Positions 22,228-52,785 of a stretch of DNA of 64,000 nucleotides are shown piece after piece. Position numbers and translations under genes: made by a program. The notes under the pieces are model-generated. The model saw only the letters and a list, made by a program, of their open reading frames with translations, did no database searches and was not told the origin of the DNA. Origin of the DNA: Dactylosporangium siamense (GTDB lineage Bacteria; Actinomycetota; Actinomycetes; Mycobacteriales; Micromonosporaceae); assembly GCF_016862795.1 (NCBI RefSeq), contig NZ_BONQ01000010.1:1-64000 (forward strand), read 5' to 3'. Each line of letters begins with the position of its first letter. Within the stretch, counting starts at the first letter, position 1.

Positions 22228-22904
22228 CCACGGCGCTGGAGCTCCACCTCGTCAACAAGATCTACCCACCGCCGACCACGGTGACCGCGCTGCGCGACGT
22301 GTCGCTGGTGGTGCGCACCGGCGAGACCGTCGCGATCACCGGCCCGTCCGGCGCCGGGAAGACGACCCTGCTCAGCATCCTGGGCACCCTGGAGCGGCCG
22401 ACCTCCGGGGCGGTCCGCATCGCCGGCACCGACACCACCGATCTGTCGGATCCCGATCTGGCCGGGGTACGGGCCTGGCACCTCGGATTCGTCTTCCAGC
22501 AGTTCTTCCTGCTCGATCACCTTTCGGTGCTGGACAACGTGGCGACCGGCCTGCTGTATCGGGGGGTGCCCGCCGCGACGCGCCGGGCGCGGGCCGGCGA
22601 GGTGCTCGAACGCGTCGGGCTGTCCGGCCGGCTCCGGCACCGCCCGGCGCAGCTGTCCGGGGGCGAGCGGCAGCGGGTCGCGATCGCCCGGGCGCTGGTC
22701 GGGCAGCCGGCGGTGCTCCTCGCCGACGAACCGACCGGCAACCTCGACTCGGCCACCGGCCAGGAGATCGCGGCGCTGCTGGCCGGCCTCGGCGGCTCGA
22801 CGACGGTCGTGCTCATCACCCACAACATGGAGGTGGCCGCGACCATGGCCCGCCAGGTGCAGCTTCGGGACGGCCGGATCCTCGACACCGCGGACGCCCC
22901 GTGA
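22224..22904 (+). CDS. ABC transporter ATP-binding protein (MacB/LolD type)
   Basis: A 226-aa protein with Walker [13 protein letters not shown]-loop [10 protein letters not shown], signature LSGGERQR, Walker [14 protein letters not shown] and H-loop LITHNM. It is the MacB/LolD/FtsE-type ATPase that powers the FtsX-like permease encoded next. It starts at the ATG overlapping the adaptor stop. Confidence 0.93.
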
Positions 22905-24085
22905 AGGCGGCCACGCGGCTGCGGGCCGGCGACGCGGTCGCGGTGTCGACGGCCGGCCTGCGGGCCCGGCGGTTGCGCGCGGCCCTGTCGGCGCTCGGCG
23001 TCGCGATCGCCATCGCCGCGCTCGTCGCCGTCCTGGGCGTCGCGGAGTCCTCCAAGGCCGAGCTGCTCGACCAACTCGGCCGGCAGGGAAACCTGCTCAC
23101 CGTCGCGACCGGCAAGACGTTCGGCGGCGACCCGGCCCCGCTGCCGGCGACCGCACCGGCGATGATCCGGCGCATTCCGCCGGTCCGGTCGGTGACGGCG
23201 GTCGGCAACGTCGAAGGCGTCACGGTCCGCCGGTCCGCCGCCGTGCCGTCGCAGCAGACCGGCGGCATCACGGTCCTCGCCGCCCAGCCGTCCCTCGTGG
23301 ACGTGCTCGCCGTGCCGCTCGCACGGGGCGCGTTCCTGCCCCACCCCGCTTTCCCGGAGGTGGTGCTCGGCGACGCCACCGCGCGGATCCTCGGCATCGG
23401 CGCCATCGACGCGCAGACCCAGGTGTACCTCGGTGGCACCTACTTCACCGTCGTCGGGATCCTCGCCCCGACGCCGGTCGCCCCCGAGATCGACACCGCC
23501 GCACTGATCAGCTACGACGTGGCCGACGAGCTGTTCCAGCTGCAGGGCCGGTCCAGCCGGGTGTACCTGCGCGTCGACCCCGACCAGGTCGCCGACGTGG
23601 CGGCGGTCCTCGCGTTCACCGCCGCGCCCCAGGACCCGCGTTCCGTGGAGGTCGGCCGGCCGTCCGACCTGCTCCTCGCCCGGATCGCGGCGAAGGGTGC
23701 CTTCGTCGGGCTGTTCCTCGGCCTCGGCAGCATCGCCCTGCTCGTCGCCGGCGTCGGCATCGCCAACATCATGGTGATCTCGGTGCTGGAACGCCGGGCC
23801 GAGATCGGCCTGCGCCGCGCGCTGGGTGCCCGCCGCCGGGACGTCGCCGTGCAGTTCCTGCTCGAGTCGGCGCTGCTCACCACCGCCGGCGGGGTCCTCG
23901 GGGTCGCGCTGGGCTGCCTCGCCACCGCCGTCGCCGCGCACCTGGCCGGCAACCCGGTCGCGATCCCGGTGGTCGCGCCCATCGCCGGGCTCGCCGCGGC
24001 GCTCGCCGTCGGTGCCCTCGCCGGCTGCTACCCGGCGCTGCGGGCCGCCCGCCTCCCACCGGCGGACGCCCTTCGGACGCCGTGA
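22901..24085 (+). CDS. ABC transporter permease (FtsX/MacB type)
   Basis: A 394-aa protein. TM1 near residues 28-48 is followed by a MacB periplasmic core domain of about 200 residues (residues 50-260). Three C-terminal helices ([60 protein letters not shown]) and the FtsX signature [19 protein letters not shown] follow. It exports lipids, peptides or antibiotics or performs mechanotransmission; the substrate is unknown. GTGA overlap with the ATPase gene. Confidence 0.9.
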
Positions 24086-24090
24086 CCCGC

Positions 24091-24142
24091 TTGACGGGGC
24101 CAGGTCACAGGACAATACTCCTAATCGTGTTAGGTGAACCTA
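24091..24142 (+). promoter_or_regulatory. Promoter and double-palindrome operator of the TetR gene
   Basis: TTGACG (24091-24096), a 17-bp spacer and AATACT (24114-24119) predict transcription starting at or next to the GTG at 24127, so the mRNA is probably leaderless. Two overlapping palindromes cover the start: CCTAA-N5-TTAGG (24118-24132) and TAGGT-GA-ACCTA (24131-24142). They are probably the autoregulatory site. Confidence 0.65.
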
Positions 24143-24738
24143 GACGCGATAGGAAAACCGAACGTCGTGCGGCAATCCGGCGAGAGATCGTCGACGCCGC
24201 TTGGCAGATCGCCCGCGACAAGGGGCTGGCGCAGGTGACCCTGCGCGACGTCGCCGACCTGGTGGGGATGCGGCCACCGTCGCTCTACACGCACTTCGAG
24301 TCCAAGAACGCCATCTACGACGCGATGTTCGGCGACGCCTGGACGCAGTACGCAGAGCACTCCAAGACGGCCGAGGCCGACGAGCCGCGCACGAGCCGGG
24401 CGGCGATGCGCTTCTACGCCCGCGTCTTCTTCGACTTCGCGGTCGCGTTCCCGGCCCGGCATCAACTGATGAACCTCCGCACGATCCCGGACTTCACCCC
24501 GAGCGCCGACGCCTACGCACCGTCCATGGCGGTCATGGAGCACTTCGTCGCCCGGATGGCCCGCCACGGCGTGCACGGGCGGGACGACATCGACCTGTTC
24601 GTCGCCATCGTCTCCGGGATGATCGACGCGCAGCTCGCCAACGACCCCGGCGGGACGCGCTGGTCCGGACTGCTGGACCGGGCCGTCGACATGTTCGCCG
24701 ACAACATCGGCATCACCGACGAGAGGAGCCGACCGTGA
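24127..24738 (+). CDS. TetR-family transcriptional regulator
   Basis: A 203-aa protein with an N-terminal HTH (RREIVDAAWQIARDKGLAQV, TLRDVADLVGMRPPSLYTHF) and a C-terminal helical ligand domain with a TetR_C_33-like pattern. It most likely represses its own operon, which includes the coupled downstream enzyme gene (GTGA overlap). The GTG at 24127 fits the predicted leaderless promoter; a longer frame from 24082 would include the promoter. Confidence 0.88.
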   Translation: MLGEPRRDRKTERRAAIRREIVDAAWQIARDKGLAQVTLRDVADLVGMRPPSLYTHFESKNAIYDAMFGDAWTQYAEHSKTAEADEPRTSRAAMRFYARVFFDFAVAFPARHQLMNLRTIPDFTPSADAYAPSMAVMEHFVARMARHGVHGRDDIDLFVAIVSGMIDAQLANDPGGTRWSGLLDRAVDMFADNIGITDERSRP

Positions 24739-25493
24739 CCACGCCAGTGCTGGCCCCCCGACGCCCGTGTTTCGAACGGGACCTGGCGAAGCGCCTCGCC
24801 ACCGACGAGTACGCACGGTGCTCCGAACTCCTGACCCGCCTGGATCCCCACCACTGGTCCGCCCCGACCGTCAACACCGGATGGGACGTCCGCGACACCG
24901 CCGGCCACATGCTCGGCATGGTGCAGATGATGAGCAGCCTGCCGCAGCTGCTCAACCAGATGTCGACGTCGACGCGTCAGGCCAAGAAGGCCAAGGCCCC
25001 GGTCTCGATCGACTTCCTCACCGCGCTGCAGGTGCGGCGCAACGCCGGACTCACCCCGGCCGAGCTGATCGGGGCGTGGCAGCGGCTCGCCCCGAAGGCG
25101 GTGCGCGGCCGCGGCCGCATGCCGGGCTTCCTGCGCGGCCGCGCCATGCCCGAGGCCCAGCTGGTCGGCGGGCAGCTGGAGCGATGGACCTTCGCGTACC
25201 TGATGGACGTGATCCTGACCCGCGACCCGTTCATGCACCGCCTGGACATCTGCGCCGCCACCGGCCTGGACCCGCGGCCCACCGCGGAGCACGACGGCCG
25301 CATCGTCGACGACGCCGTCCAGGAGTGGGCCGGGCGGCACGGTCAGCCCTACTCCCTGGAGCTCACCGGCCCGGCCGGCGGTGTCTGGGGCGCCGGCACC
25401 GACCGGATCACGATGGACGCGCTGGACTTCTGCCGCATCATCTCCGGACGGGGCGAGGCAGCCGGCCTCCTCACCACGTCGGTGCCGTTCTGA
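24735..25493 (+). CDS. Maleylpyruvate isomerase-fold (mycothiol-dependent family) protein
   Basis: A 252-aa protein with a DinB/MDMPI metal-binding helical domain. WDVRDTAGHMLGM carries the first histidine ligand and FMHRLDIC the second, followed by the MDMPI C-terminal domain (LELTGPAGGVWGAG...MDALDFCRIISGRG). Family members include mycothiol-dependent maleylpyruvate isomerases and other mycothiol S-transferases, consistent with an actinobacterial host. The substrate is unknown. Control by the coupled TetR protein suggests response to a xenobiotic or metabolite. Confidence 0.8.
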   Translation: MTTPVLAPRRPCFERDLAKRLATDEYARCSELLTRLDPHHWSAPTVNTGWDVRDTAGHMLGMVQMMSSLPQLLNQMSTSTRQAKKAKAPVSIDFLTALQVRRNAGLTPAELIGAWQRLAPKAVRGRGRMPGFLRGRAMPEAQLVGGQLERWTFAYLMDVILTRDPFMHRLDICAATGLDPRPTAEHDGRIVDDAVQEWAGRHGQPYSLELTGPAGGVWGAGTDRITMDALDFCRIISGRGEAAGLLTTSVPF

Positions 25494-25567
25494 CCCGCCC
25501 CCCACCGGCCGACGCCTGCTGACCGTGTGGCCGATTGCCGAGCGTCGATCCGGGGAACGGGTACGGC

Positions 25568-26092
25568 ATGCGATACGAACTCGTGCGCCGGCCCGTGTGG
25601 GTGCGAAGCATCCTGAGCGCGCTGGTGTTCGCCGCGGTGACGACGGTGTTCAGGCTGCTCACCACGCCGACCGGACCGCTGCCGGCGCTGACCGCCGGTG
25701 TCGGCGGCGGCGCGCTGTTCGGCGTGGTGTTCGGCCTGTTCCTGTACCGGCAGGACCGCCAGCTCTGGGGTGACCAGCGGCTCAGCGGCGATGAGCGGGT
25801 CGCCGCGGTCCGCGCCGTCGACCGGGGGGACCCACCGTCCGAGCCCGACGTCCGAACGGCGGCGACCCGCGTCGCCCGGCTGCGCACCGCCCCGTCGAAC
25901 CATCCCGCCGCGGTCGTGGCCATGTTCGGGCTCCTGCTGGTGGTGGCCCTGGTCGAAGCCGCTGTTCTCGGCAACCGCTTCTGGTGGCTGATCGCGGGGT
26001 TCGTCGTGGTGTTCGCGCCGTGGGTGACGATCCGGACGGTCCGCCAGCGATCCACCGCCCGCCGGTTCCTCGCCGCGGTCGGAAACTCCTGA
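25568..26092 (+). CDS. Hypothetical membrane protein (four helices)
   Basis: A 174-aa protein with two N-terminal hydrophobic helices (SILSALVFAAVTTVFRLL; AGVGGGALFGVVFGLFLY). A charged cytoplasmic loop with DERVAAVRAVDRGDPP follows, then two more helices (VVAMFGLLLVVALVEAAVL; FWWLIAGFVVVFAPWVTI). I do not recognise a function. It stands alone just outside the left arm of the long inverted repeat. Confidence 0.65.
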   Translation: MRYELVRRPVWVRSILSALVFAAVTTVFRLLTTPTGPLPALTAGVGGGALFGVVFGLFLYRQDRQLWGDQRLSGDERVAAVRAVDRGDPPSEPDVRTAATRVARLRTAPSNHPAAVVAMFGLLLVVALVEAAVLGNRFWWLIAGFVVVFAPWVTIRTVRQRSTARRFLAAVGNS

Positions 26093-26123
26093 CACGCAGG
26101 GTTTTCGGGACTCCGGACAGGGC

Positions 26124-26156
26124 TGAGGCCGGTCACCGTGTTGGTGACCGGCCTCA
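26124..26156 (-). terminator. Hairpin terminator of the left acidic-protein gene
   Basis: TGAGGCCGGTCACC and its exact reverse complement flank a 5-nt loop (GTGTT): a 14-bp perfect stem 45 bp past the stop codon of the 26201 gene. Without a U-run, as usual in actinomycetes. Confidence 0.8.
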
Positions 26157-26200
26157 CGCCAGGGGGTCCTGCTCTTGGTTTGTCAGTTGCTCTTGGTTGG

Positions 26201-26632
26201 TTAGTTGGAGGCGACGCCGAGTTCGGCTGCGCCGCCGCCGGTGTGGATTTCGGTGCCGGAGGCGAAGGCGCTGTCCAGGCGGGCCTGGAGGGCGTCGAGC
26301 TGGGAGTATTCGGCGTTGTGCGAGGACTCGCTGCCTTCGGCGGCGAAGACGTGGTCGGTTTCGGCGGCGGAGTGGTCGTAGGAGGTGTAGTCCGACTCCT
26401 CGTAGTGCGCGCCGTTGGGGTTGCTGTACTCGACGTGGTGGCCCTGGTCGAAGCTGGTGTTCTCGGCTGCGGCGTGGTCCTGCTCGTAGACGTTGAACTG
26501 GTTGTTGTAGTCGGCCTCGCTGGCGTTGACCTGGTGCAGCTGGTCCAGGGACTCGTGCTCCTGGCCGGTCTCGACGTGACCGTAGTCCGCGCCGCCGTCG
26601 TAGCCGGTGTCGCCGCCGTCGTAGTCGCTCAT
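26201..26632 (-). CDS. Acidic Asp/Tyr/His/Glu-rich protein, copy A
   Basis: A 143-aa, strongly acidic and hydrophilic protein with no hydrophobic core until the C-terminus. It begins MSDYDGGDTGYDGGADYGHV. Nearly every segment is built from D, E, H, N, Q, S and Y with a YE/DH rhythm, and it ends with a short helix (LDALQARLDSAFASGTEIHT) and a Gly-rich tail. It is probably largely disordered; the family is not recognised. The amino-acid sequence is identical to copy B at 29740-30171. GGGGAGA ribosome site. Transcribed outward from the repeat pair. Confidence 0.8.
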   Translation of the reverse strand: MSDYDGGDTGYDGGADYGHVETGQEHESLDQLHQVNASEADYNNQFNVYEQDHAAAENTSFDQGHHVEYSNPNGAHYEESDYTSYDHSAAETDHVFAAEGSESSHNAEYSQLDALQARLDSAFASGTEIHTGGGAAELGVASN

Positions 26633-26732
26633 CGCTATCTCCCCTGAGGTGTGTGTCTGTCTCGCTGTTGGAACAAACGTTAGGCGTGGGGGAAGCGGTT
26701 CAAATCCCGGAAACGTGCCACCCGGCCAGGGG

Positions 26733-27257
26733 TCAGCGGGGGCGTGCGTTGTGCAGGCGGATGCCGCTGAAACGCAGGCTGCTGGCCGTGACCGCGTCCC
26801 AGAACGACCACAGGTTCGGCAGCACCCGCAGCTGGATGCCGGCGCCGGCGTGCAGCTCGAAGAGGTCCCCGACCGGCTCCGGCGGGCCGAGCGGCTCGAC
26901 CGGCTCGACGGCGACGTGGGCGTGGCTGCCGAACGGTGCGAACGGCGCCGCCGGGAACCGGTACGCGAACAGCCGGGCGGTCCGGATCGCCTCCAGCCAG
27001 CCGTATTCGACGGCGTGGACGCGCTCGCCGCAGCCGGCGCCGACGATCCGGTCGCGGTCCTCGGCGGTGGTGCCGGGGACGGTCCAGGCCATCGCCCGCG
27101 GGCACTGGCGCGGGAACCAGTAGTCCGGTGAGCGCCCGTGGTCCACGGCCCAGACGTACGCCTCCGGCTGCTGCGCGGTCGCCGCGACGTGCGGCACGAA
27201 CCTGGTGATCGTCGGGTCCTCGGAGAAGTGCAGCACCTGCCCCGGCTCCGGTCGCAT
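26733..27257 (-). CDS. DUF6886-like protein
   Basis: A 174-aa soluble protein starting MRPEPGQVLHFSEDPTITRF. The HFSEDP opening, AYVWAVDHGRSPDYWFPRQC and PRAMAW are, as I remember it, features of the DUF6886 family, whose function is unknown. The ATG overlaps the CGNR gene stop by one base (TGATG), so the two are co-translated. The gene ends 11 bp inside the left repeat arm boundary. Confidence 0.65.
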   Translation of the reverse strand: MRPEPGQVLHFSEDPTITRFVPHVAATAQQPEAYVWAVDHGRSPDYWFPRQCPRAMAWTVPGTTAEDRDRIVGAGCGERVHAVEYGWLEAIRTARLFAYRFPAAPFAPFGSHAHVAVEPVEPLGPPEPVGDLFELHAGAGIQLRVLPNLWSFWDAVTASSLRFSGIRLHNARPR

Positions 27258-28246
27258 CAGTCGCCCTCCCTGCCGCTGCCGTGGTGGCGCTGGTAGTGCC
27301 GGGCGACCCTGGCCCGGTTGCCACAGCCGTCGGAGCACCACTCACGGCGTGGATGGTTGCGCAGGAAGTACAGCACGCAGCCGGGCGCTCGGCAGGCCCG
27401 CAGCAGCAGCCGGTCCGGGCCGGCGAACAGGGCGACGGCCTCCTCGGCGATGGCCGCGACGGCCGCGAGCCCCGGCGAGTGCGAGGTGCGCACCACCCGC
27501 ATGTGACCGCCCGCCTGCCCGGCGCCGGCCGCCTGCGCAGCGCTGGCCGCTTGCGCCGCGCTGGCCGCTTGCGCCGCGCTGGCTTCCGGCAAGCCGATCT
27601 CGCCGTCGGCCGCGATCCCGTGGTCCGGGCGGCGCTCCTGGGACCAGTGCAGCTCGGACCACGACGGCGCTCGTGCGCAGGCCCGGTTGAGGACACCGAC
27701 GGCGGCTTCCAGATCTGCGGCCGACACGACGGTCGGGTGGTCGCCGGCCTCGGTGGCGGCCGGCCAGGTGTGGTCGGGCGAGAGGGGGATCGGCCGAGTG
27801 TGGCCGGGTGTGACGGGGGCCGATCGGGCGTGGTCAGGCGTGACGGCGGCCGACCGGGCGTGGTCAGACGACGTGACGGGGGCCGGCCGGGCGTGGTCGG
27901 ACGCGACGGGGGCCGGCCAGGTGTGATCGGACGTGACGGCGGCCGGCCGGGCGTGGTCGGACGCGACGGGGGCCGGCCAGGTGTGATCGGACGTGACGGG
28001 GGCCGGCCAGGTGTGATCGGGCGTGACGGCGGCCGGCCGATCGTCGCCGGTCTCGGCGGCGGCCAGCAGGCGCAGCGCGTCGCGGAGGTCGCGCAGCTCG
28101 GCGACGGCCTCCCAACCGGCGATCCCGACCTCGGGCCGGGCCTCCCGCAACCAGCGCGCGGCGGCGGCCGGGTCGGCGATCGTGTCCTGCACGCCGTCGC
28201 GGCCCGCCACCACCGTGTTCATCAGTTCAACCGGCAACGACTCCAC
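27257..28246 (-). CDS. CGNR zinc-finger regulator with in-frame repeat expansion
   Basis: A 329-aa protein. It has an N-terminal ABATE domain (LPVELMNTVVAGRDGVQDTI, about 1-72, resuming at about 170-215). A C-terminal CGNR treble-clef zinc finger carries Cys 285, 290, 304 and 308 (CRAPGC...WCSDGCGNRARVARHY), which probably binds DNA. Family members are normally about 180-200 aa. Here the ABATE domain is interrupted by nine decapeptide units of the V(T/A)(S/P)DH(T/A)(W/R)PAP type (74-164), and a second AAQAAS repeat lies before the finger (about 220-240). It is divergent from the flavin-reductase-like gene, a common regulator-target arrangement. Confidence 0.8.
   Translation of the reverse strand: MESLPVELMNTVVAGRDGVQDTIADPAAAARWLREARPEVGIAGWEAVAELRDLRDALRLLAAAETGDDRPAAVTPDHTWPAPVTSDHTWPAPVASDHARPAAVTSDHTWPAPVASDHARPAPVTSSDHARSAAVTPDHARSAPVTPGHTRPIPLSPDHTWPAATEAGDHPTVVSAADLEAAVGVLNRACARAPSWSELHWSQERRPDHGIAADGEIGLPEASAAQAASAAQAASAAQAAGAGQAGGHMRVVRTSHSPGLAAVAAIAEEAVALFAGPDRLLLRACRAPGCVLYFLRNHPRREWCSDGCGNRARVARHYQRHHGSGREGD
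27528..27592. repeat. 18-bp in-frame repeat (AAQAAS) inside the CGNR gene
   Basis: GCTGGCCGCTTGCGCCGC is repeated exactly at 27542 and 27560 with partial copies on both sides. It encodes three AAQAAS hexapeptides. Confidence 0.8.
27755..28027. repeat. 30-bp tandem repeat array inside the CGNR gene
   Basis: About nine units of 30 bp (one 33 bp) share cores such as GGGGCCGGCCAGGTGTGATC and encode decapeptides around SDHTWPAP or SDHARPAA. All indels are multiples of three, so the frame is preserved. This looks like recent expansion by slippage or unequal recombination. Confidence 0.9.
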
Positions 28247-28332
28247 GGTCCTAATGGTAAGGCATTGCGAAAACCATTTGGTCGTGTACTAATGGAAGCA
28301 ACGCACTTCATCCGTTAGGAAGGGAGACTGCG
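28247..28332. promoter_or_regulatory. Divergent promoter region, CGNR gene / flavin-reductase-like gene
   Basis: An AT-rich gap of 86 bp. It contains AATGGT (28252) and ACCATT (28272) as a spaced inverted repeat and a second ACTAATGG copy (28289). AGGAAGGGAG at about 28318 is the ribosome site of the rightward gene. The AATGG repeats are candidates for CGNR-regulator binding. Confidence 0.4.
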
Positions 28333-29232
28333 GTGTTCCATGAGGGAGAGCTGGCGGTGCAGGAGCGGGCCGGCGTGCGGCTCGAGGCGGCCCGGCTGAC
28401 CGGCATGCTGGCGCCCGGCGGCCTGAGCCGCGGCGCCGGCGGCTGGCTGGCCGAGCGGACCCTGGCCGTGCTCACCGGCCGCGACCGGGCCGGACGGCTG
28501 TGGGCATCGGCGCTGACCGGCCCGCCCGGCTTCCTCGACGGTGCCGGGCAGCGGCTGCGGGTGGACGCGGCGTTCGCCCCCGGCGACCCGCTGCACGACC
28601 TGCCGGGTGGCCAGCGGGTCGGCCTGATCGCGATCGACTTCGCGACCCGCCGCCGGATGCGGGTCAACGGCACGCTGTTCACCGAGGAAGCCGGCCGGGA
28701 CGGGCGGGACGAGCTCACCGTCGAGGTGGCGGAGGCGTTCGGCAACTGCCCGCAGTACATCCAGCCGCGCCGGCTCGCCCCGGCCAGGGCGGCGGGCGCC
28801 GGGCCGATGTTCACGTCGCTGCCGGTGCTCACACCGGCCGCCGCGGCGACGGTCGCCGGTGCCGACACGTTCTTCCTCGGCACCGCCCACCCGGGCCGCG
28901 GCGCCGACGCCTCACACCGCGGCGGCCCGCGCGGGTTCCTGCGCGTCGACGGCGACGACCTGTGGTGGCCCGACTATCCGGGCAACAACATGTTCAACAG
29001 CCTCGGCAACCTCGCCACCGACCCGTCCGCGGCGCTGCTCGTGCCCGACTTCGCCACCGGCCGCACCCTGCACCTGTCGGGCACCGCGACGGTGGAGTGG
29101 ACCGAGCCGGGCACCGGCGCCCCCGACGAGGTGACGGGCCGCCGGGTCCGCTTCCACCCGACCGCCGTCGTCGCCGGCGAGCACCCCGCCCTCGTCGCCG
29201 TCCACACCGGACCACCCGGCGGCGGCCCGTGA
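28333..29232 (+). CDS. Pyridoxamine 5'-phosphate oxidase-fold flavoprotein
   Basis: A 299-aa protein with a split-barrel FMN/PPOX domain in two halves. The N-terminal half is LTGRDRAGRLWASALTGPPG. The second half has the FMN-site pattern GADTFFLGTAHPGRGADASHRGG, LRVDGDDLWWPDYPGNNMFN and SLGNLATDPSAALLVPDF. It resembles 'pyridoxamine 5'-phosphate oxidase family / flavin-nucleotide-binding' proteins, probably an FMN-dependent reductase or oxidase of unknown substrate. GTG start after an AGGAAGGGAG site. The last about 12 residues (VHTGPPGGGP) are encoded by the first unit of a minisatellite. Confidence 0.75.
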   Translation: MFHEGELAVQERAGVRLEAARLTGMLAPGGLSRGAGGWLAERTLAVLTGRDRAGRLWASALTGPPGFLDGAGQRLRVDAAFAPGDPLHDLPGGQRVGLIAIDFATRRRMRVNGTLFTEEAGRDGRDELTVEVAEAFGNCPQYIQPRRLAPARAAGAGPMFTSLPVLTPAAAATVAGADTFFLGTAHPGRGADASHRGGPRGFLRVDGDDLWWPDYPGNNMFNSLGNLATDPSAALLVPDFATGRTLHLSGTATVEWTEPGTGAPDEVTGRRVRFHPTAVVAGEHPALVAVHTGPPGGGP

Positions 29233-29381
29233 ACCCGCCGTCCACACCGGACCACCCGGCGGCGGCCCGTGAACCCGCCGTCCACACCGGACCACCCGGT
29301 GCCGGCTCGTGAACCGCCGCCCACACCGGACCGACCCCTTGAACCGCCGCCCACACCGGATCACCCGCCGCCGGCCCGTGA
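29197..29381. repeat. 39-40 bp minisatellite starting in the flavoprotein gene 3' end
   Basis: Five units of the type GCCGTCCACACCGGACCACC plus GGCGGCGGCCCGTGAACC. The first two are almost exact copies and later ones diverge or shorten. Unit 1 supplies the C-terminus and TGA stop of the flavoprotein; each following unit carries the same GTGA/TGA. Confidence 0.85.
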
Positions 29382-29452
29382 CCGGCCCGTGTTTCGCCCG
29401 GAGCGCCGCCGGGAATCCGTGTGCTCAACCGGTCCCCCCACGGAGGTTTCCC

Positions 29453-29599
29453 ATGTCGGCACAGGCCGTCCTGTACATCATCGCCATCATCCTGCTCGCC
29501 GTCGCGGCGCTGCCGGTGCCGTCCCGCGGCTTCAACCTGGCGATCCTCGGCGCCGCCGTCGCCCTCCTCGCCTACGCCTGGCCGATCGTCAGCGCCTGA
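29453..29599 (+). CDS. Small two-helix membrane protein (48 aa)
   Basis: MSAQAVLYIIAIILLAVAAL opens a hydrophobic helix, a short VPSRGFN turn follows, then a second helix (LAILGAAVALLAYAWPIV). Such 45-55 aa proteins are widespread in actinomycetes and of unknown function. CGGAGG lies 9 bases upstream. A terminator follows at once. Confidence 0.65.
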   Translation: MSAQAVLYIIAIILLAVAALPVPSRGFNLAILGAAVALLAYAWPIVSA

Positions 29600-29614
29600 C
29601 CGAGGCACCCGCGA

Positions 29615-29654
29615 CCACGGCCGGTCACCCTTCCCCCGGGGTGGCCGGCCGTGG
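29615..29654 (+). terminator. Hairpin terminator after the 48-aa membrane protein
   Basis: CCACGGCCGG (29615-29624) pairs perfectly with CCGGCCGTGG (29645-29654), with a further CACCC/GGGGTG pairing inside. It abuts the inner edge of the right repeat arm. Confidence 0.7.
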
Positions 29655-29739
29655 CACGTTTCCGGGATTTGAACCGCTGCCCCCACGCCTAACGTTTGTT
29701 CCAACAGCGAGACAGACACACACCTCAGGGGAGATAGCG

Positions 29740-30171
29740 ATGAGCGACTACGACGGCGGCGACACCGGCTACGACGGCGGCGCGGACTACGGTCACGTCG
29801 AGACCGGCCAGGAGCACGAGTCCCTGGACCAGCTGCACCAGGTCAACGCCAGCGAGGCCGACTACAACAACCAGTTCAACGTCTACGAGCAGGACCACGC
29901 CGCAGCCGAGAACACCAGCTTCGACCAGGGCCACCACGTCGAGTACAGCAACCCCAACGGCGCGCACTACGAGGAGTCGGACTACACCTCCTACGACCAC
30001 TCCGCCGCCGAAACCGACCACGTCTTCGCCGCCGAAGGCAGCGAGTCCTCGCACAACGCCGAATACTCCCAGCTCGACGCCCTCCAGGCCCGCCTGGACA
30101 GCGCCTTCGCCTCCGGCACCGAAATCCACACCGGCGGCGGCGCAGCCGAACTCGGCGTCGCCTCCAACTAA
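29740..30171 (+). CDS. Acidic Asp/Tyr/His/Glu-rich protein, copy B
   Basis: A 143-aa product identical to copy A (26201-26632), transcribed rightwards, away from the enclosed block. The same GGGGAGA site precedes the ATG by 6 bases. The identity of the untranslated flanks as well as the coding region shows a recent duplication or active gene conversion rather than selection on the protein alone. Confidence 0.8.
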   Translation: MSDYDGGDTGYDGGADYGHVETGQEHESLDQLHQVNASEADYNNQFNVYEQDHAAAENTSFDQGHHVEYSNPNGAHYEESDYTSYDHSAAETDHVFAAEGSESSHNAEYSQLDALQARLDSAFASGTEIHTGGGAAELGVASN

Positions 30172-30215
30172 CCAACCAAGAGCAACTGACAAACCAAGAG
30201 CAGGACCCCCTGGCG

Positions 30216-30248
30216 TGAGGCCGGTCACCAACACGGTGACCGGCCTCA
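30216..30248 (+). terminator. Hairpin terminator of the right acidic-protein gene
   Basis: The mirror copy of the 26124-26156 hairpin (14-bp perfect stem, 5-nt loop), 44 bp after the stop codon. Confidence 0.8.
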
Positions 30249-30279
30249 GCCCTGTCCGGGGCGGCGGGACAGTAGGTGC

Positions 30280-30594
30280 ATGAGCAACAGCCCCGCACGG
30301 GTGTTCCGGATCGCCGCGATCGGGGAGGCGTGCTCCTGGCTCGGCCTGCTGGTCGGGATGTTCTTCAAGTACGTCGTGGTCGAGAACGAGATCGGCGTGA
30401 AGGTCTTCGGGCCGATCCACGGTGCGATGTTCGTGATCTACCTGGTCGCGCTGGTGTGGGTGGCCAGGGCGGAGCGGTGGAGCCTCGCGCGGTTCGCCGT
30501 CGGGGCGGTGGCGTCGATCCCGCCGTTCACGACGCTGCTGTTCGAGCTGTGGGTGGAGCGGGTCAGGCGCGCCCCGGTGCCGGAACGCGCCTGA
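30280..30594 (+). CDS. DUF3817 integral membrane protein
   Basis: A 104-aa protein with three helices (IAAIGEACSWLGLLVGMFFK; VFGPIHGAMFVIYLVALVWV; FAVGAVASIPPFTTLLFELW). EACSWLGLL, GPIHGAMF and IPPFTTLLFE match the DUF3817 signature. The function is unknown. It lies just outside the right repeat arm and is convergent with the GH30 gene with a 9-bp gap. Confidence 0.85.
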   Translation: MSNSPARVFRIAAIGEACSWLGLLVGMFFKYVVVENEIGVKVFGPIHGAMFVIYLVALVWVARAERWSLARFAVGAVASIPPFTTLLFELWVERVRRAPVPERA

Positions 30595-40424: not shown

Positions 40425-41939
40425 GTGCCTTCTTCCAACTGGTGGCGCACCGCGGCCATCTACGAGATCTACGTGCGCAGCTTCGCCGACGGCAACGGCG
40501 ACGGTGAGGGCGACCTCATCGGGCTGCGGGAACGCCTGCCATACCTCAAGGACCTCGGCGTCGACGCGATCTGGCTGACGCCGTTCTTCCGCTCCCCCAT
40601 GATCGACGGCGGCTACGACGTCGCCGACTACCGCGACGTGGACCCGATGTTCGGCACCCTGGCCGACTTCGACGCGATGCTCGCCGCGGCGCACGCCCTG
40701 GACATCCGGGTCATCGTCGACATCGTGCCCAACCACACGTCGTCGCAGCACGCCTGGTTCGCCGAGGCGCTGGCCGCACCGCCCGGGTCCCTGGCCCGCG
40801 ACCGGTACATCTTCCGGCCCGCCACCGAGGAACCGCCGAACGACTGGGAGTCCATCTTCGGCGGCCGGGCCTGGACCCGCACCCCCGACGGCGAGTGGTA
40901 CCTGCACCTGTTCGACCCGGCCCAGCCCGACCTCAACTGGGACAACGCCGACGTGCGCGCCGAGTTCGAGTCGGTGCTGCGGTTCTGGCTGGACCGCGGC
41001 GTCGACGGCTTCCGCGTCGACGTCGCCCACGGCATGGTGAAGGAGGCCGGCCTGCCGTCCGTCGGGCACCCGCAGCAGATCGGGCTGCTCGGCCGCGAGC
41101 CGCTGCCGTACTTCGACCAGGACGGCGTCCACGAGATCTACCGTGCGTGGCGCAAGATCCTCGACTCCTACCCCGGTGACCGGATGGCGGTCGCGGAGGC
41201 GTGGGCGTCGACCCCGCGGCGGCTGGCCCGCTACGTCGCCCCCGACGAGCTGCACCAGGCGTTCAACTTCGACTTCCTCGCCGCACCGTGGTCCGCGGCC
41301 GAGCTGCGCGCGACGGTCGACGCGTGCATCGAGGCCGCCGACAGCGTCGGCGCGCCGACCACGTGGGTGCTGTCCAACCACGACAAGGCCCGCCACGTCA
41401 CCCGCTTCGGCTCGTCGTCGGTGGCCCGCGCCGCCGCGCTGCTCATGCTGGCACTGCCCGGCGCGGTCTACCTGTACCAGGGCGAGGAGCTCGGCCTGCC
41501 CGAGGTGCTGGACCTGCCCGACGACGCCCGCCAGGACCCGGTGTGGCACCGCTCCGGCGGCACCGATCCCGGCCGGGACGGGTGCCGGGTGCCGCTGCCG
41601 TGGATCGCGGACGCGCCCGCCTACGGCTTCTCCGCCACCGGCCGCTCGTGGCTGCCGCAGCCGGACTGGTCGGGCCTGGCCGTGTCCGCGCAGCTCGGTG
41701 TGCCGACGTCGGTCCTGGAGTTGTACCGGGAAGCCCTGCGGCTGCGCCGCACCTTCAACGGCCCGCTGGCGTGGCACCCCTCCCCCGCCGACGTGCTGGA
41801 CTTCCAGCGCGGCGACCTGCGGTGCGTGGTCAACCTGTCCAGTGTTCCCGTCCCGGTCCCGGCGGGCGAGGTGCTGCTGTCCAGCGCGGACCTGGCCGGT
41901 GGCCTCCTGCCGCCGGACGCGGCGGTCTGGGTGCGGTGA
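40425..41939 (+). CDS. Cytoplasmic GH13 alpha-glucosidase / oligo-1,6-glucosidase
   Basis: A 504-aa protein with no signal peptide. [20 protein letters not shown] is the classic opening. Regions are [33 protein letters not shown] and [12 protein letters not shown]. It liberates glucose from short maltodextrins. It lies 38 bp after the LacI gene and is probably co-transcribed with it. The GTG at 40425 starts the conserved N-terminus; an upstream AAGGG is 11 bases away. It ends at a strong hairpin. Confidence 0.9.
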
Positions 41940-41947
41940 CGGTGCGA

Positions 41948-41979
41948 CCCGGATGCCCGCCGGTCGGAGGGCATCCGGG
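41948..41979 (+). terminator. Hairpin terminator after the alpha-glucosidase gene
   Basis: CCCGGATGCCC and GGGCATCCGGG form a perfect 11-bp stem around a 10-nt loop, 9 bp past the stop codon. Confidence 0.8.
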
Positions 41980-41992
41980 GGCACGGTTCGCA

Positions 41993-42008
41993 TATGCTCC
42001 CCGCCGTG
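41993..42008 (+). promoter_or_regulatory. Leaderless -10 element of module copy 1
   Basis: TATGCT (41993-41998) is followed by 7 nt and then GTG (42006). The string CGCATATGCTCC plus CGCCGTGCC is repeated at the second copy (44848-44867), which supports a conserved promoter with transcription starting at the GTG. Confidence 0.55.
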
Positions 42009-42947
42009 CCATTCCACGTCCCCGTCCCGGCGAGCGAGCCGGTCGAGCTCTTCCCCAGCCTGCGCGGCCTGGTGGCGGACGGCGAGCGGGGCGACTGGGC
42101 GGCCGTCATGGCGCACCTCGGCGGGCTGCCCGGCCTCGATGACTTCGTCGTCGCGTGCAGCCAGGTGGAGGGGCGCATCGCCGACCACGTGCTCGCGCGG
42201 GTGCCGGTCGGTGACCCGTCGTGGGGTGTGGCGCAGGCGATGCGGGCCGCGCGCATCACCGAGGAGGGCTGGAAGATCCGCGGCGACGGCTGGGCGCGCA
42301 CCGTGACCCCGCCGCAGTGGGCCGCGTTCCGCGAGCACCTCAACCGGGCCGAGCAGCTCCTCATCGACGTCACCGCCCGCGAGCCCCGGCTGGGGTACGC
42401 GTGGCTGGAGCGGATGACCACCTGCCAGGGCCTCTCGCTCGGCGCCGCCGAGGCCCGCCGGCGCTACGACCGGCTCAGTGCGCACGCCCCGCACACGTAC
42501 ATCGCCGGCTTCCGGCTCATGCAGCAGCTCCTGCCCAAATGGAGCGGATCGTGGGAGCAGGTGTCCGCGTTCGCCGCGGAACTGCTGCGGGTGACCCCGG
42601 CCGGGTCGATCGGGCTGCTGCCGGTGCTCGTCGCGCACCTGGAGCGGCACAGCGCCGCCGAGACCGACGCCGAGGCCGCCGCATACCTGCGCGACCCGGC
42701 CGTGGTCGCGGAGATCCACCTGGTCGCGGACCGCACGGTGCGGCACCCCGCGTTCCAGCCCGGCTACCGCGTCTACACCGCGCACGACTACTTCGCCATG
42801 CTGTTCTCCCTCATGGGCGACCACGCCGCCGCCGCGCCGCACTTCCGGGCGCTGCACGGGCGGCGCACCCCGTTCTGGGAGTGGTACTTCGGCGACGCCG
42901 GGGCCGCGTACGCCGGGCACCGGGACCGCGCGCTGGCAAGAGGCTGA
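42006..42947 (+). CDS. DUF4034-like protein, module copy 1
   Basis: A 313-aa soluble helical protein, about two-thirds identical by eye to the 44863 product. Conserved stretches are [51 protein letters not shown] and [20 protein letters not shown]. The C-terminal part resembles DUF4034 proteins as I remember them; function unknown. TPR-like helical repeats are suggested by its periodic LxxAE/LLxVTP segments. It precedes the M16-like gene by 3 bp. An in-frame ATG at 41994 is an alternative start, but GTG 42006 matches the conserved leaderless promoter. Confidence 0.6.
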
Positions 42948-42950
42948 ACC

Positions 42951-44792
42951 GTGCTGCGACACACCGAGGTCGACGGCGTCCCCACCCTGCTCGCGCCGGG
43001 CTCGGGCCCGATGGTCGCCGGCCTGACGTTCCGCGTCGGCCGGGTCGACGAGGGGCTGGCCCGCACCGGCATCACGCACCTCGTCGAGCACCTGGCCCTG
43101 CACCGGCACGGTGTCGCCGACCACCACAACGGCGTCACCGGCGGCATCGTCACCCACTTCCACCTGCGGGGCGCCGAGGCCGACATCGTCCGCTCCCTCG
43201 AGCTGGTCTGTGACTCGCTGTCCGACCTGCCGGTCGAGCGCCTCGAGACGGAGAAGGCGATCCTGCGCGCCGAGGCGGCCGGCCGCGCCGACGGCGTCAC
43301 CGCGCTGCTGCCGCTGTGGCGGTACGGCGCGCAGCACTTCGGCCTGGTCAGCTACCCGGAGTGGGGCGTGGACCAGCTCAGCGCCGACGACGTGCGGGCG
43401 TGGGCGCACACCTGGTTCACCCGGGAGAACGCGGTGCTGTGGATCTCCGGCGACCGGGTGCCGGCCGGGCTGCGCCTACGGCTGCCCGGTGGCGGCCGGC
43501 GCCGGCCGGTGCCGCCCGCGGCCACGGTGCTGCCGTCGACCCCGGCGTACTTCGCCGGACCCAACGGCGGTGTCGTCTTCGACGGCCTCATGCGCCGGCA
43601 CACCGCGGGCACACTGTTCGGCGGGATGCTGGAGCGCGAGCTGCTCCGGGCGCTGCGCCAGGAGGGCGGCCTGTCCACCACGGCGAGCGCGTCCTACGAC
43701 CCGCGCGGCGACGGGTTCGCGGTCGTCACGGCGTTCGCCGACGCGCCGCCCGAACGGCAGGACGCCGTGCTCGGCGGCTTCGTGGACGTCCTGGCCGGGT
43801 TCCGGGTCGGCCGCATCGAACAGGCCGACCTCGACGCGGTCCGGGCGAAGCGCGAGGAGGCGCTGGCCCACCCGGACGTCCACGCGGGCCGGCTGTCGGG
43901 CCTCGCCACGGACCTGCTCACCGGCGAGCCCGTCCTCAGCGTGGACGAGCTGCATGCCGAGCTGCGCGCGGTCACGCTCGACGGCATCCACGACGCCGCC
44001 CTGCAGGTCACCGGCTCCGGGCTGCTGCAGGTCCCGCCGGGGCACCGCGCCGACTGGGCCGGCTTCACCGCCGCGCCGGCGACGTCGAGCGAGACGATCC
44101 CCGGCTACACGTTCCGGTCCGTGGACGGCTCCGGCGCCGCGCTCGTCCTCGGCGCCGAGGGCGTCAGCCTGGTCGAGGGCGAGCGCCGGGTCACGGTCCG
44201 GTTCCGCACCTGCGCCGCCGTCCACGCGTGGCCCGACGGCGCCCGCCAGCTGATCGGCCTGGACGGCATCACGGTGCGGATCGAGCCGACCCTGTTCGCC
44301 GCCCCGCCGGACACCGCGGCCCGCATCGACGCCGCCGTCGACCCGGCGCTGGTGGTGCGGATGCCGGCCCGCACACCCGATGCCATCCCCCGGCCGTACA
44401 CCCCGGCCCAGCCGCCGCCCACGCGGCTCTTCCCCGCCGCGTCGCCGGACCCGAACCTGGTGCTGGTCCCGGGCGCGCAGCAGGGCCTGCCGCAGCCACT
44501 GATCCAGCCGCAGGACCCGGCCGCGTTCCCGGCGGGCCGGTTCGCCGCCCGGCCCGGGCGGACCCGGCCCGGCACCGCGCAGCTGATCATCATGATCGCG
44601 ATGTTCGCCGCCGGCCTGGTGTTCCTGTCCTGTGCCGGCGTCCTCACCATCGCCTCGGTCGAGGGGATCGAACCCGGCGAGGAGGAGTTCCGCGACGTCG
44701 CCTGGTACGTGATCGTGACCATCGCCTGGACGGGCACCCTGACCCTGCTCGGCTGGGCTGGCTACCTGCTGGTCCGTCGCCTCCGCAGCTGA
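42951..44792 (+). CDS. M16-type metallopeptidase-like protein with C-terminal membrane anchor, copy 1
   Basis: A 613-aa protein. The N-terminal half has the inverted zinc motif HxxEH (H43-L-V-E46-H47, in [14 protein letters not shown]) and a downstream conserved Glu stretch ([14 protein letters not shown], about 99-112), as in pitrilysin-family peptidases. A second M16-like domain follows ([34 protein letters not shown]). A Pro-rich linker (about 455-535) leads to two transmembrane helices ([40 protein letters not shown]), which is unusual for M16. It is probably a membrane-tethered peptidase facing the cytoplasm; the substrate is unknown. GTG start 3 bp after the partner gene. Confidence 0.7.
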
Positions 44793-44797
44793 TGTGC

Positions 44798-44838
44798 GCC
44801 GTCCCGGTGCCGGCCCTGCCGGGGGACATCGGGACGGC
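44798..44838 (+). terminator. Hairpin between module copies
   Basis: GCCGTCCCG (44798-44806) pairs perfectly with CGGGACGGC (44830-44838). It separates the two copies, so each is its own transcription unit. Confidence 0.6.
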
Positions 44839-44849
44839 ATGCGCTCGCA

Positions 44850-44865
44850 TATGCTCCGCGCCGTG
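44850..44865 (+). promoter_or_regulatory. Leaderless -10 element of module copy 2
   Basis: TATGCT (44850-44855), 7 nt, then GTG (44863): the same arrangement and nearly the same sequence as at 41993-42008, although the DNA further upstream differs. Confidence 0.55.
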
Positions 44866-45804
44866 CCGTTTCAGCTGCCGGTGCCGGAGAGCCAGCCGGC
44901 CGACCTGTTCGCCGAGCTGCGCCGTCTCGCCGCCGACGCCGGCCGGGGTGACTGGGCCGCCGTGGCGGCGTTCCTCGGCGGGCTGCGGTCGCTCGACGAC
45001 CTCGCGGTGGCGTGCGGCCAGATCGAGGACAAGCTCGACGACCAGGTCCTCCAGCGGGTGCCGTACGGCGACCCGGCCTGGGCGCTGGCATACACGATGC
45101 TCGGGGTCCGCACCGTGCTGCGCGGGTGGAAGATCCGCGGGACCGGCTGGGCCCGCGACGTCACGCGGCAGCAGTGGGCGGGCTTCCACGAGCACCTCAA
45201 CCGGGCCGAGCAGATCCTCATCGACGTCACCGCCCGCGAGCCGCAGCAGGGCTACGCGTGGCTGGAGCGGATGATCATCTGCCGGGGCATCTCGCTCGGC
45301 CACGACGAGGCCCGGCGGCGGTACGACCGGCTGAGCGCGCACCACCCGTTCGCGTACATCGCCGGATATCACCTCGTGCAGCAGCTGCAGCCGAAGTGGG
45401 GCGGGTCGTGGGAGAAGGTGGCCGAGTTCGGCGCCGAGCTGCTGCGCACCGCGCCCGCGGGGTCGGTCGGGCTGCTCGCCGTCCTCGCCGGGCACATGGA
45501 GCGCTTCCAGGCGTCGGACTCCGACGTCGAAGGCACGGCGCTGCTGCGCGCCCCGGCGACCGTGGCGCAGATCCACCAGGTCGCCGACCGGACCGTCCGG
45601 CACCCCGCGTTCCAGCCCGGCTACCGGTTCTACACCGCGCACGACTACTTCGCGATGCTGTTCTCCCTCGTCGGCGACCACGCCGCCGCGGCGCCGCACT
45701 TCCGGGCACTGGCCGGGCGGCGCACCCCGCTCTGGACGTCGTACTTCGACAACCCCGGCGTCGCGTACGCGAACCTCCGGGACCGCGCGCTGGCGAGAGG
45801 TTGA
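44863..45804 (+). CDS. DUF4034-like protein, module copy 2
   Basis: A 313-aa protein, exactly the same length as copy 1 and colinear over its whole length ([51 protein letters not shown]). The lack of indels despite many substitutions implies selection on structure. It lies 4 bp before its M16-like partner. An upstream in-frame ATG at 44851 exists; the GTG is chosen from the conserved promoter spacing. Confidence 0.6.
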   Translation: MPFQLPVPESQPADLFAELRRLAADAGRGDWAAVAAFLGGLRSLDDLAVACGQIEDKLDDQVLQRVPYGDPAWALAYTMLGVRTVLRGWKIRGTGWARDVTRQQWAGFHEHLNRAEQILIDVTAREPQQGYAWLERMIICRGISLGHDEARRRYDRLSAHHPFAYIAGYHLVQQLQPKWGGSWEKVAEFGAELLRTAPAGSVGLLAVLAGHMERFQASDSDVEGTALLRAPATVAQIHQVADRTVRHPAFQPGYRFYTAHDYFAMLFSLVGDHAAAAPHFRALAGRRTPLWTSYFDNPGVAYANLRDRALARG

Positions 45805-45808
45805 TCCC

Positions 45809-47401
45809 GTGCTCCACCGCACCGACGTCGACGGCGTCCCGACGCTGCTCGCGCCGAGCTCCGGCCCGATGACCGCCGGGCTGACCTTCCGGGTCGGCCT
45901 GGCCGACGAGGGCGCCGCCCGCATCGGCATCACGCACCTCGTCGAGCATCTCGCGCTGCACCGGCACGGCGTCGCCGACTACCACTACAACGGCGCCACC
46001 GGCAGCGTCGTCACGCATTTCCACATGGAGGGCAGCGAGCGCGACATCGTCACGTACCTGGAGATGGTCTGCGACTCCCTCGCCGACCTGCCGGTGCAGC
46101 GGCTGGAGACCGAGAAGGCGATCCTGCGCACCGAGGCGGCCGGGCGCGGCGGCGGCGTCAACCGGATGCTGCCGATGTGGCGGCACGGCGCCCAGCACTA
46201 CGGCCTGGTCGGCTACCCCGAGTGGGGCATCGACCGACTCGGCCCCGACGACGTGCGGGCCTGGGCGAACGCCTGGTTCACCCGCGCGAACGCGGTGCTG
46301 TGGATCTCCGGCGACCGGGTCCCGCCGGGCCTGCGGCTGCGCCTGCCGGCCGGGACGCTCCGCCCGGTGCCGGTCGCCTCGACGGTGCTGCCGGCGACAC
46401 CGGCCTACTTCACCGGCGCCGGCGGCGGCGTGGTCTTCGACGGCGTCATGCGCCGGCACGTGGCCGGTTCGGTGTTCGCCCTGATGCTGGAGCGGGAGCT
46501 GTTCCGGTCGCTGCGGCAGGAGAGCGGCCTGTCCTACGCGGCGAGCGCCTCCTACGACCCGCGTGGCGACGGCATGGCGGTCGTCACCGCGTTCGCCGAC
46601 GCGCTGCCGGAGAAGCAGCGCGCGGTCGTCGGCGGTTTCGTCGACGTCCTCGCCGGGTTCCGGGTCGGCCGGATCTCCCAGACCGAGCTCGACGCGGTCC
46701 GCGCGAAACGCGACGAGGCGCTGCGCCATCCCGACGCGCCCGCGGGCCGGCTGCCGGGCCTGGCCACCGACCTGCTCACCGGCGCACGGCTGCGCACCCT
46801 CGACGAGCTGCGCGCCCAGCTCTACGCCGTCGCCCTCGCCGACGTGCACGGCGCCGCCCTGCAGGTCCTCGACTCGGGACTGCTGCAGGTGCCGCCGGGC
46901 AGCCGGGCCGACTGGGCCGGGTTCGCGGCGGCGCCGACGACGTCGACGGACGCGATCCCCGGGCACACGTACCGGGCGGTCGACGGCTCCGGGGCTTCGC
47001 TCGTCCTCGGCGCGGACGGGGTCAGCATCGTCGAGGGCGAGTGCCGGGCGACGGTCCGCTACCGCTCCTGCGCGGTGATGCACGCGTGGCCGGACGGCGC
47101 GCGGCAGCTGGTCGGCCTGGACGGGATCGCGGTGATGATCGAGCCGGCGCTGTTCGCCGCGCCCGCGGACACCGCCGCCCGCATCGACCGGTCCGTGGAT
47201 CCGTCGATCGTCCTGCCGATGCCGGCCCGCAACCCGAACGACATCCCCCGCCCGTCGACGGCACCTGCCACCGGCACGTTCCCGCCGTCAACCGCGACGG
47301 TTCCGGCCCCCACCGGAGGGTTCCCGCCGGCGACCGGCGGGATCCCGCGGACCATCACGGTGCTCCCGCCCGATGGTTCGTTCCCGCCCGCCGGCCGCTG
47401 A
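45809..47401 (+). CDS. M16-type metallopeptidase-like protein, soluble form, copy 2
   Basis: A 530-aa paralogue of the 42951 product: HLVEH at 43-47 and TEKAILRTEAAGR retained, second domain LERELFRSLRQESGLSYAAS. The colinearity ends in the linker. Instead of two membrane helices it ends in a Pro/Thr-rich tail with FPP repeats (GTFPPSTATVPAPTGGFPP). So the pair provides one membrane-anchored and one soluble form. M16 enzymes often work as heterodimers of related subunits, which is a plausible reading here (inference). The zinc site appears intact in both. Confidence 0.7.
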   Translation: MLHRTDVDGVPTLLAPSSGPMTAGLTFRVGLADEGAARIGITHLVEHLALHRHGVADYHYNGATGSVVTHFHMEGSERDIVTYLEMVCDSLADLPVQRLETEKAILRTEAAGRGGGVNRMLPMWRHGAQHYGLVGYPEWGIDRLGPDDVRAWANAWFTRANAVLWISGDRVPPGLRLRLPAGTLRPVPVASTVLPATPAYFTGAGGGVVFDGVMRRHVAGSVFALMLERELFRSLRQESGLSYAASASYDPRGDGMAVVTAFADALPEKQRAVVGGFVDVLAGFRVGRISQTELDAVRAKRDEALRHPDAPAGRLPGLATDLLTGARLRTLDELRAQLYAVALADVHGAALQVLDSGLLQVPPGSRADWAGFAAAPTTSTDAIPGHTYRAVDGSGASLVLGADGVSIVEGECRATVRYRSCAVMHAWPDGARQLVGLDGIAVMIEPALFAAPADTAARIDRSVDPSIVLPMPARNPNDIPRPSTAPATGTFPPSTATVPAPTGGFPPATGGIPRTITVLPPDGSFPPAGR

Positions 47402-47410
47402 TCGACGAAC

Positions 47411-47440
47411 GGCCCGAGCCCGTAGCGGCGGGCCCGGGCC
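47411..47440. terminator. Bidirectional hairpin between convergent genes
   Basis: GGCCCGAGCCCG and CGGGCCCGGGCC form a 12-bp stem with one mismatch and a 6-nt loop, 9 bp past the stop of the plus-strand gene and 8 bp before that of the amylase. Confidence 0.65.
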
Positions 47441-47448
47441 CGGTGCGG

Positions 47449-49545: not shown

Positions 49546-49577
49546 GGGGTGTCTCCTCAGAATCAAACGGAGGCAGG

Positions 49578-52520: not shown

Positions 52521-52594
52521 GGGGGTGCTCCTTGCGTGCATCGAAGACAGCCTGGCGGGGCGTGCAGCGCGTGGAGGAAGACTGATCTGGCCGA

Positions 52595-52762
52595 TTGACA
52601 CATGTCAAGCTTCTTGCAAAAGTCACCAGCTTCTCACCGACCTCATGGCCAGTGAGCTGCTGAAACGCCGAAGCCATCTTGCAAAGATCAACAGGTCTTT
52701 ACCGGCGCGTTACGGGAAGCTAGCATCAGGGCGCTCTTGCAAGACTTTGCAACTTCTGCAAG
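52595..52762. promoter_or_regulatory. Divergent amylase control region with CTTGCAA operators
   Basis: Repeated motifs: TTGACA-CA-TGTCAA (52595-52608), CTTGCAAAAG (52613), ATCTT-GCA-AAGAT (52676-52688), CTTGCAAG (52736-52743) followed by CTTTGCAA and CTTCTGCAAG (to 52762). The CTTGCAA core is shared with the LacI/malE region at 39.3 kb, so one repressor probably controls both amylase transcripts and the malEFG genes. The TTGACA may also be a -35 hexamer. Confidence 0.65.
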
Positions 52763-52785
52763 TCACCTACAGTGGAGCGTATCCG

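Follow-up and report, generated by a model that had tools for sequence, protein, structure and literature searches.

The contig NZ_BONQ01000010.1 of the soil actinomycete Dactylosporangium siamense (assembly GCF_016862795.1), of which we analysed positions 1 to 64,000 (64,000 nucleotides, hereafter the window), carries a pair of 609-bp inverted arms around a block of genes, and these arms are probably two neighbouring inverted paralogues that have been homogenised by homologous recombination and that form a potentially flippable segment. The gene in each arm is no orphan element; it belongs to a dispersed, Dactylosporangium-specific family. We show that this family is under concerted evolution, the centre of the gene being species-specific and its ends locus-specific, and that at another pair D. 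fulvum and D. roseum differ by a fixed inversion with its crossover inside the arms. In the mechanism we propose, the arms would be adjacent, oppositely oriented members of a family whose unit comprises a promoter box, an acidic gene and a hairpin; many copies would have been inherited at fixed loci, some would have been lost through internal deletion, and copies would repeatedly overwrite one another by homologous recombination, that is by gene conversion of an assumed RecA type. As the homology ends with the functional unit, conversion of a full unit would yield arms that start at the promoter box, and where inverted copies are both close and alike a crossover between them would flip the intervening segment. 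We infer both the RecA-type mechanism and the origin of the window pair by conversion rather than by a fresh duplication.

Alignment of the arms (26113-26721 and 29651-30259) gives reverse complements with 608 of 609 positions complementary, so that the near-perfect inverted duplication with one mismatch, reported in a preliminary description made from the sequence, holds to the base. The sole mismatch lies near the inner edge at 26693, paired with 29679 (the left arm reads A where the right arm, reverse-complemented, reads C), in the spacer between the promoter box and a −10-like hexamer. The homology ends abruptly on both sides, and among repeats of at least 40 nt no other inverted pair in the window is both long and near-identical, the second longest spanning 201 nt at 79%; a chance origin is ruled out by the length and identity of the arms. 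Each arm is a single, complete transcription unit with 5′ and 3′ non-coding flanks, on the minus strand over the whole left arm and on the plus strand over the right. Counted on the sequence in gene orientation, the unit consists of one G, the box TGGCACGTTTCCGGGATT (26703-26720, minus, and 29652-29669, plus), 20 bp, the hexamer TAACGT (26677-26682, minus, and 29690-29695, plus), 143 codons (26201-26632, minus, and 29740-30171, plus, encoding identical acidic proteins) and a terminator-like hairpin with a 13-bp stem (26125-26155, minus, and 30217-30247, plus, positioned by inspection). The start codon lies 88 bp past the first base of the box; arm identity extends one base past the box and stops 12 bp beyond the hairpin. 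The arms thus span the non-coding flanks, promoter and terminator of an identical 143-amino-acid (aa) gene, as had been described, the same open reading frame (ORF) and 5′ and 3′ flanks being present in both. A consensus terminator scan misses the hairpins because the stem lacks a T-run, and the window holds no RNA family at gathering threshold and no tRNA. In line with the described absence of a transposase or integrase, a Pfam scan of the 11 distinct proteins of the arm, block and near flanks matched no transposase or recombinase, the other window genes not being scanned.

Family members occur in all seven Dactylosporangium genomes, with 7-14 protein matches each (contig-end fragments included), and in none of 54 genomes outside the genus, and a 55-row family profile found no match in 120 other genomes of a 50-genus sample of the order. 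The window's own genome has 14 protein matches, both arms among them; at the nucleotide level, the eight closest units outside the arms have 76-93% identity. No Pfam or NCBIfam family matches the 143-aa protein (the search did not extend to PHROGs and PADLOC), and the viral contigs, plasmids and phages searched yielded no relative. The protein has an isoelectric point of 4.1 and contains neither lysine nor cysteine; an AlphaFold model built from the 55 rows is poor (mean predicted local distance difference test, pLDDT, 53.4; predicted template modelling score, pTM, 0.22) and shows two long strands and one helix. Our guess is that it is a small, acidic, partly disordered protein under a common developmental or stress regulator. 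Among the papers listed on Dactylosporangium repeats or inverted repeats and on Micromonosporaceae promoter motifs or small acidic proteins, no title or abstract opening describes the family.

Concerted evolution is seen when copies are grouped by locus. In an alignment of 61 of the 77 matches that the fetched loci contain, the middle of the protein is species-specific and the N- and C-termini follow the locus. We sorted 44 copies into 11 locus groups by their flanking genes, leaving the window pair and a D. vinaceum pair outside the identity and tree counts. With the control group excluded, core identity is higher between same-species paralogues (0.823, n=87) than between orthologues (0.749, n=62), and the gene ends follow the opposite trend (0.711 for paralogues against 0.751 for orthologues). 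Nearest neighbours of 37 copies agree with this: in core DNA, 27 have a same-species paralogue as nearest neighbour, 7 a copy of the same locus and 3 another copy, and at the gene ends the corresponding counts are 14, 21 and 2. On a 35-copy tree, clade changes number 4 for the core and 7 for the ends, and locus changes 23 and 16. The family core is not simply fast-evolving, since at the divergent, non-mixing control locus D6 it stays at 0.871 over the 21 pairs of seven species (ends 0.712). The recent homogenisation or gene conversion that had been offered to explain the identity of the window arms therefore finds support in the family at large, as it does in D. vinaceum, whose own inverted pair is 100% identical over 581 bp in a complete chromosome. 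Other tracts are less perfect: the D. roseum pair reaches 99.2% over 477 bp and the D. fulvum pair 95.2% over 455 bp, and two D. fulvum copies that lie 7.5 Mb apart in record coordinates share 96.5% over 569 bp. In three pairs, those of the window and of D. vinaceum and the distant one of D. fulvum, identity starts a single base outside the box, a common edge that is explained if conversion is limited by the edge of homology and that arbitrary duplication would rarely produce.

Inversion at one such pair is fixed between two of the relatives. The D. fulvum locus L088 and the D. roseum locus L095 are collinear outside their inverted copy pair, and inside it an 813-bp two-gene block is reversed at 96.8% identity. 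Comparison of the arms in 40-column bins shows promoter halves exchanged between arms, which places the crossover inside them. From promoter to start codon, the D. fulvum right copy is 94-100% identical to the D. roseum left copy and 30-70% to the right one, yet its outer flank bin is 100% identical to the D. roseum right copy and 45% to the left; compared with the D. roseum right copy, the promoter half of the D. fulvum left copy gives bins of 95, 98, 48 and 100%, with an indel in the 48% bin. The switch point falls within the coding core, where all four copies are alike. At a second locus three species have the upstream gene g2, then a copy, then g6, with the copy deleted there in a fourth (D. 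fulvum); the window's genome and D. aurantiacum have g2, then a copy, then g1 or g11, and D. vinaceum shows yet another join. Between two copy sites, g4, g5, g3 and g2 run in opposite order in D. fulvum and in the window's genome, one of the two D. fulvum sites being known only from a box with two mismatches. The invertible segment suggested in the preliminary description is supported at another family pair and by the flank swaps at the second locus, not at the window block, for which flipping is a prediction.

The position of copies in sister species bears on whether the unit moves by itself. Over 3-kb flanks we compared 33 copies in three sister pairs (7 of D. fulvum, 12 of the genome G002 and 14 of the window's genome), and 18 match a sister-species copy with both flanks (in three cases a copy that is split into two halves at contig ends); two are the inverted pair, seven match on one side, one has matching flanks without a copy and five have no match, contig ends explaining part of the unmatched copies. 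Losses leave scars: a D. fulvum locus keeps box, promoter and hairpin around a lost ORF that D. roseum retains, and another ORF is gone from the window's genome, D. aurantiacum having it in two halves at contig ends, which we joined into one copy on the basis of their neighbours. Such remains, box and hairpin with the ORF gone, lie at position 11313 of locus L171 and position 5886 of locus L163. Mobility of the unit, as a non-autonomous element or a gene cassette on which a transposase encoded elsewhere acts, would account for dispersed copies of a sharply bounded unit, for near-identical copies at distant D. fulvum sites and for the several copies without a matching flank in a sister species, but the syntenic copies speak against it, and as inverted repeats the unit ends share only 5 of 20 bases in both window units and 7 of 20 in both D. 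vinaceum units, short of terminal inverted repeats. No candidate target-site duplication was found in three of four units, with only 3-4-bp offset matches in the fourth, and a base-level look at the two deleted copies saw parts of box and hairpin left behind and no precise empty site. MITE-like (miniature inverted-repeat transposable element-like) non-autonomous insertion elements are short, dispersed and sharply bounded and lack a transposase; unlike them, the family unit was seen with none of the terminal inverted repeats, consistent target duplications or precise empty sites. Scar-leaving losses, missing terminal repeats and inconsistent target duplication together argue against a mobile element, which we find scarcely credible; the new type of non-autonomous element that the preliminary description had entertained is likewise not supported. 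A transposon or cassette origin was rejected on target duplications, terminal repeats, empty sites and the absence of the family from the phage, plasmid and viral collections searched. Under random placement, the probability of a pair as close as the closest observed is 0.06, 0.008 and 0.012 in the three complete genomes; as the genomes with the two lowest values share ancestry and direct pairs exist too, these values do not show that inverted pairing itself is favoured.

The history of the window pair can be followed into D. aurantiacum. There, separate family copies, both cut by contig ends, abut the orthologues of two genes that lie outside the window arms, a MacB/FtsX permease on the left (22901-24085, plus, 2 kb from the arm; D. 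aurantiacum locus L129) and a DUF3817 gene on the right outer flank (30280-30594, plus; L130). The 3′ untranslated regions (UTRs) of these two copies differ, and by eye both window arms are closer to the one on the DUF3817 side. Two separate copies and this likeness indicate that two copies were probably present before the species diverged, and the left window copy has then probably been recently overwritten, or re-made. Identity of the entire unit, and inner flanks of the window arms that match nothing in D. aurantiacum, would also suit one arm being a fresh inverted duplication, through template switching or break-induced copying, rather than a converted pre-existing copy; we regard this as unlikely, given the two D. 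aurantiacum copies and a start of identity at the same box base in three pairs, where random ends would rarely coincide. It is hard to believe that one real copy was placed twice by the assembler, although the assembly is a draft in which other family copies break off at contig ends. One base distinguishes the arms, and their flanks are unrelated on all sides; D. aurantiacum has a match to the right outer junction and, on the left, a copy next to the same permease; and the same architecture occurs in complete chromosomes. Inverted arms, and a flip fixed between two relatives, could also suggest a programmed switch in which a dedicated recombinase acts at the arms and alters how the block or the acidic genes are expressed. 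This is very unlikely, as no recombinase is among the 11 proteins scanned at the locus and the crossover maps to the broad coding core instead of a short site; since the outward-facing gene and its promoter are identical in the two arms, a flip would change little in their expression.

Several observations weigh against homogenised, flippable paralogues as the full account of this locus. The direction of overwriting is weakly suggested, by the resemblance of the 3′ UTRs. The permease directly abuts the copy in D. aurantiacum, whereas in the window three genes intervene between permease and left arm (TetR, MDMPI and 185-aa membrane genes, 24082-26092, plus), and the DUF6886 gene of the block has no match in D. 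aurantiacum, so the locus has been rearranged in other ways too. We traced the orthologues of DUF6886, of a pyridoxamine-phosphate-oxidase-like (PNPOx-domain) protein, of the 185-aa protein and of DUF3817 in other relatives, and the loci fetched around them, some of which are 3-4 kb long, have no family copy and no box (at most three mismatches) nearby; in none of the other genomes examined does a family copy adjoin the window block, so that the orientation of the block cannot be compared. The assembly is a draft of 296 contigs in which three other copies are cut at contig ends, so the inner junctions are seen in this assembly alone. Tract edges are not always at the box, identity in the D. 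roseum pair L094/L095 running about 16 bp beyond it and weaker tracts varying. The D. fulvum left outer flank matches neither D. roseum arm owing to extra genes there, and since such genes lie on both sides of the left arm the difference is not a bare flip. Four of the seven D. fulvum copies are collinear with D. roseum on both sides, and most other family copies show no inversion. A single fixed, diverged arrangement in all relatives, which the preliminary description had named as evidence to the contrary, is not what the relatives show.

The promoter box recurs throughout the family. It is present in 64 of 66 upstream regions, 34 of them without mismatch and all with at most six, and a TAnnnT hexamer follows exactly 20 bp after it in 61 of the 64 (21 bp in two, 22 in one). 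At no more than two mismatches each genome of the genus holds 8-15 boxes (72 in total), against 0-1 for the reversed control, and we assigned all 72 by reading their loci: 58 precede family genes (for some of which a contig end leaves no more than the first codons), 10 stand before other acidic genes, encoding either a protein with DxDGDG repeats or a protein beginning MSDF, three lie at remnants or possible remnants of family copies and one has no such gene. Examples of the other genes are a DxDGDG-repeat gene at 5324-5884 of L165 and an MSDF-type gene at 5732-6106 of L164, and perhaps the three kinds of gene share one regulon. At one mismatch the box occurs in 28 of 150 genomes of the bacterial family, the seven Dactylosporangium genomes and 21 of 143 others, the latter with one or two sites each. 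Six of these non-genus loci were read, of which two precede an acidic DxDGDG-type gene and four other genes; in nine further genomes a box match lies, judged by positions, within about 250 bp of a DxDGDG-type gene. Two loci of another genus of the family (L182 and L183) have the box ahead of an 86-aa acidic DxDGDG-type gene. The occurrence of the box before such genes outside the genus suggests that it may be an older promoter that was amplified in Dactylosporangium. A sigma-70 scan returned no site, and no named regulator was identified for the box promoter; a promoter shared also beyond the genus offers an entry to a regulon.

Bacterial rRNA operons and tuf genes are dispersed copies that gene conversion keeps alike and that can mediate inversions; those are near-identical housekeeping genes, whereas in the family described here it is mainly the gene centre that the copies of one species share, and the ends keep their locus identity. 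The nearest described case that we found is the flip/flop region of Saccharomyces chromosome XIV (Centroid sporulation genes), a 24-kb segment between 4-kb repeats (PMC9731477). The two systems have in common an inverted repeat of a homogenised gene family and concerted evolution of the repeats, and the yeast segment has been re-inverted repeatedly across the genus. The units here are about 0.6 kb long, on a bacterial chromosome and at several dispersed loci, and in yeast both orientations are described among strains, whereas here they are found only between species and at another pair. Dactylosporangium thus offers a bacterial case of a dispersed, uncharacterised protein family in concerted evolution, in which exchange falls mainly in the middle of the gene, a locus that does not mix serves as an internal control and an inversion has been traced to a crossover within genes, and it would explain why draft Dactylosporangium assemblies break in these genes. 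A further and distinctly doubtful idea is that the promoter-gene-terminator units form a network across the genome, exchanging protein centres like a shared sequence reservoir, with inverted neighbours as recurrent flip points; if true, the species-specific centre would be a tag of the species that the copies update together, belonging for example to a spore or sporangium matrix, and not the product of passive drift.

The four genes between the arms are those of the preliminary description, namely a DUF6886 gene (26733-27341, minus, whose start may be 27257), an ABATE/CGNR zinc-finger gene (27257-28246, minus), the PNPOx-domain protein gene (28333-29232, plus) and a small membrane-like ORF of 48 aa without a Pfam match (29453-29599, plus). 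DUF6886 orthologues of three other species (L041, L042 and L044) contain an in-frame stop, so the gene may be decaying there. The ABATE/CGNR gene carries 30-bp tandem repeats (27725-28104) that encode SDHxRPAPVT-like repeats, and a 40-bp tandem repeat in four copies, 85-100% alike, runs over the end of the PNPOx gene (29196-29384). Part of the window block recurs in genome G003, where the 3.8-kb locus L143, which has no family copy, holds a PNPOx relative (43%) next to a CGNR zinc finger (64%). Elsewhere in the window, direct duplications that have diverged (81-83%, 42267-46656) lie about 2.86 kb apart within the region 40997-54792, which also shows inverted similarities of 73-90% among further genes.

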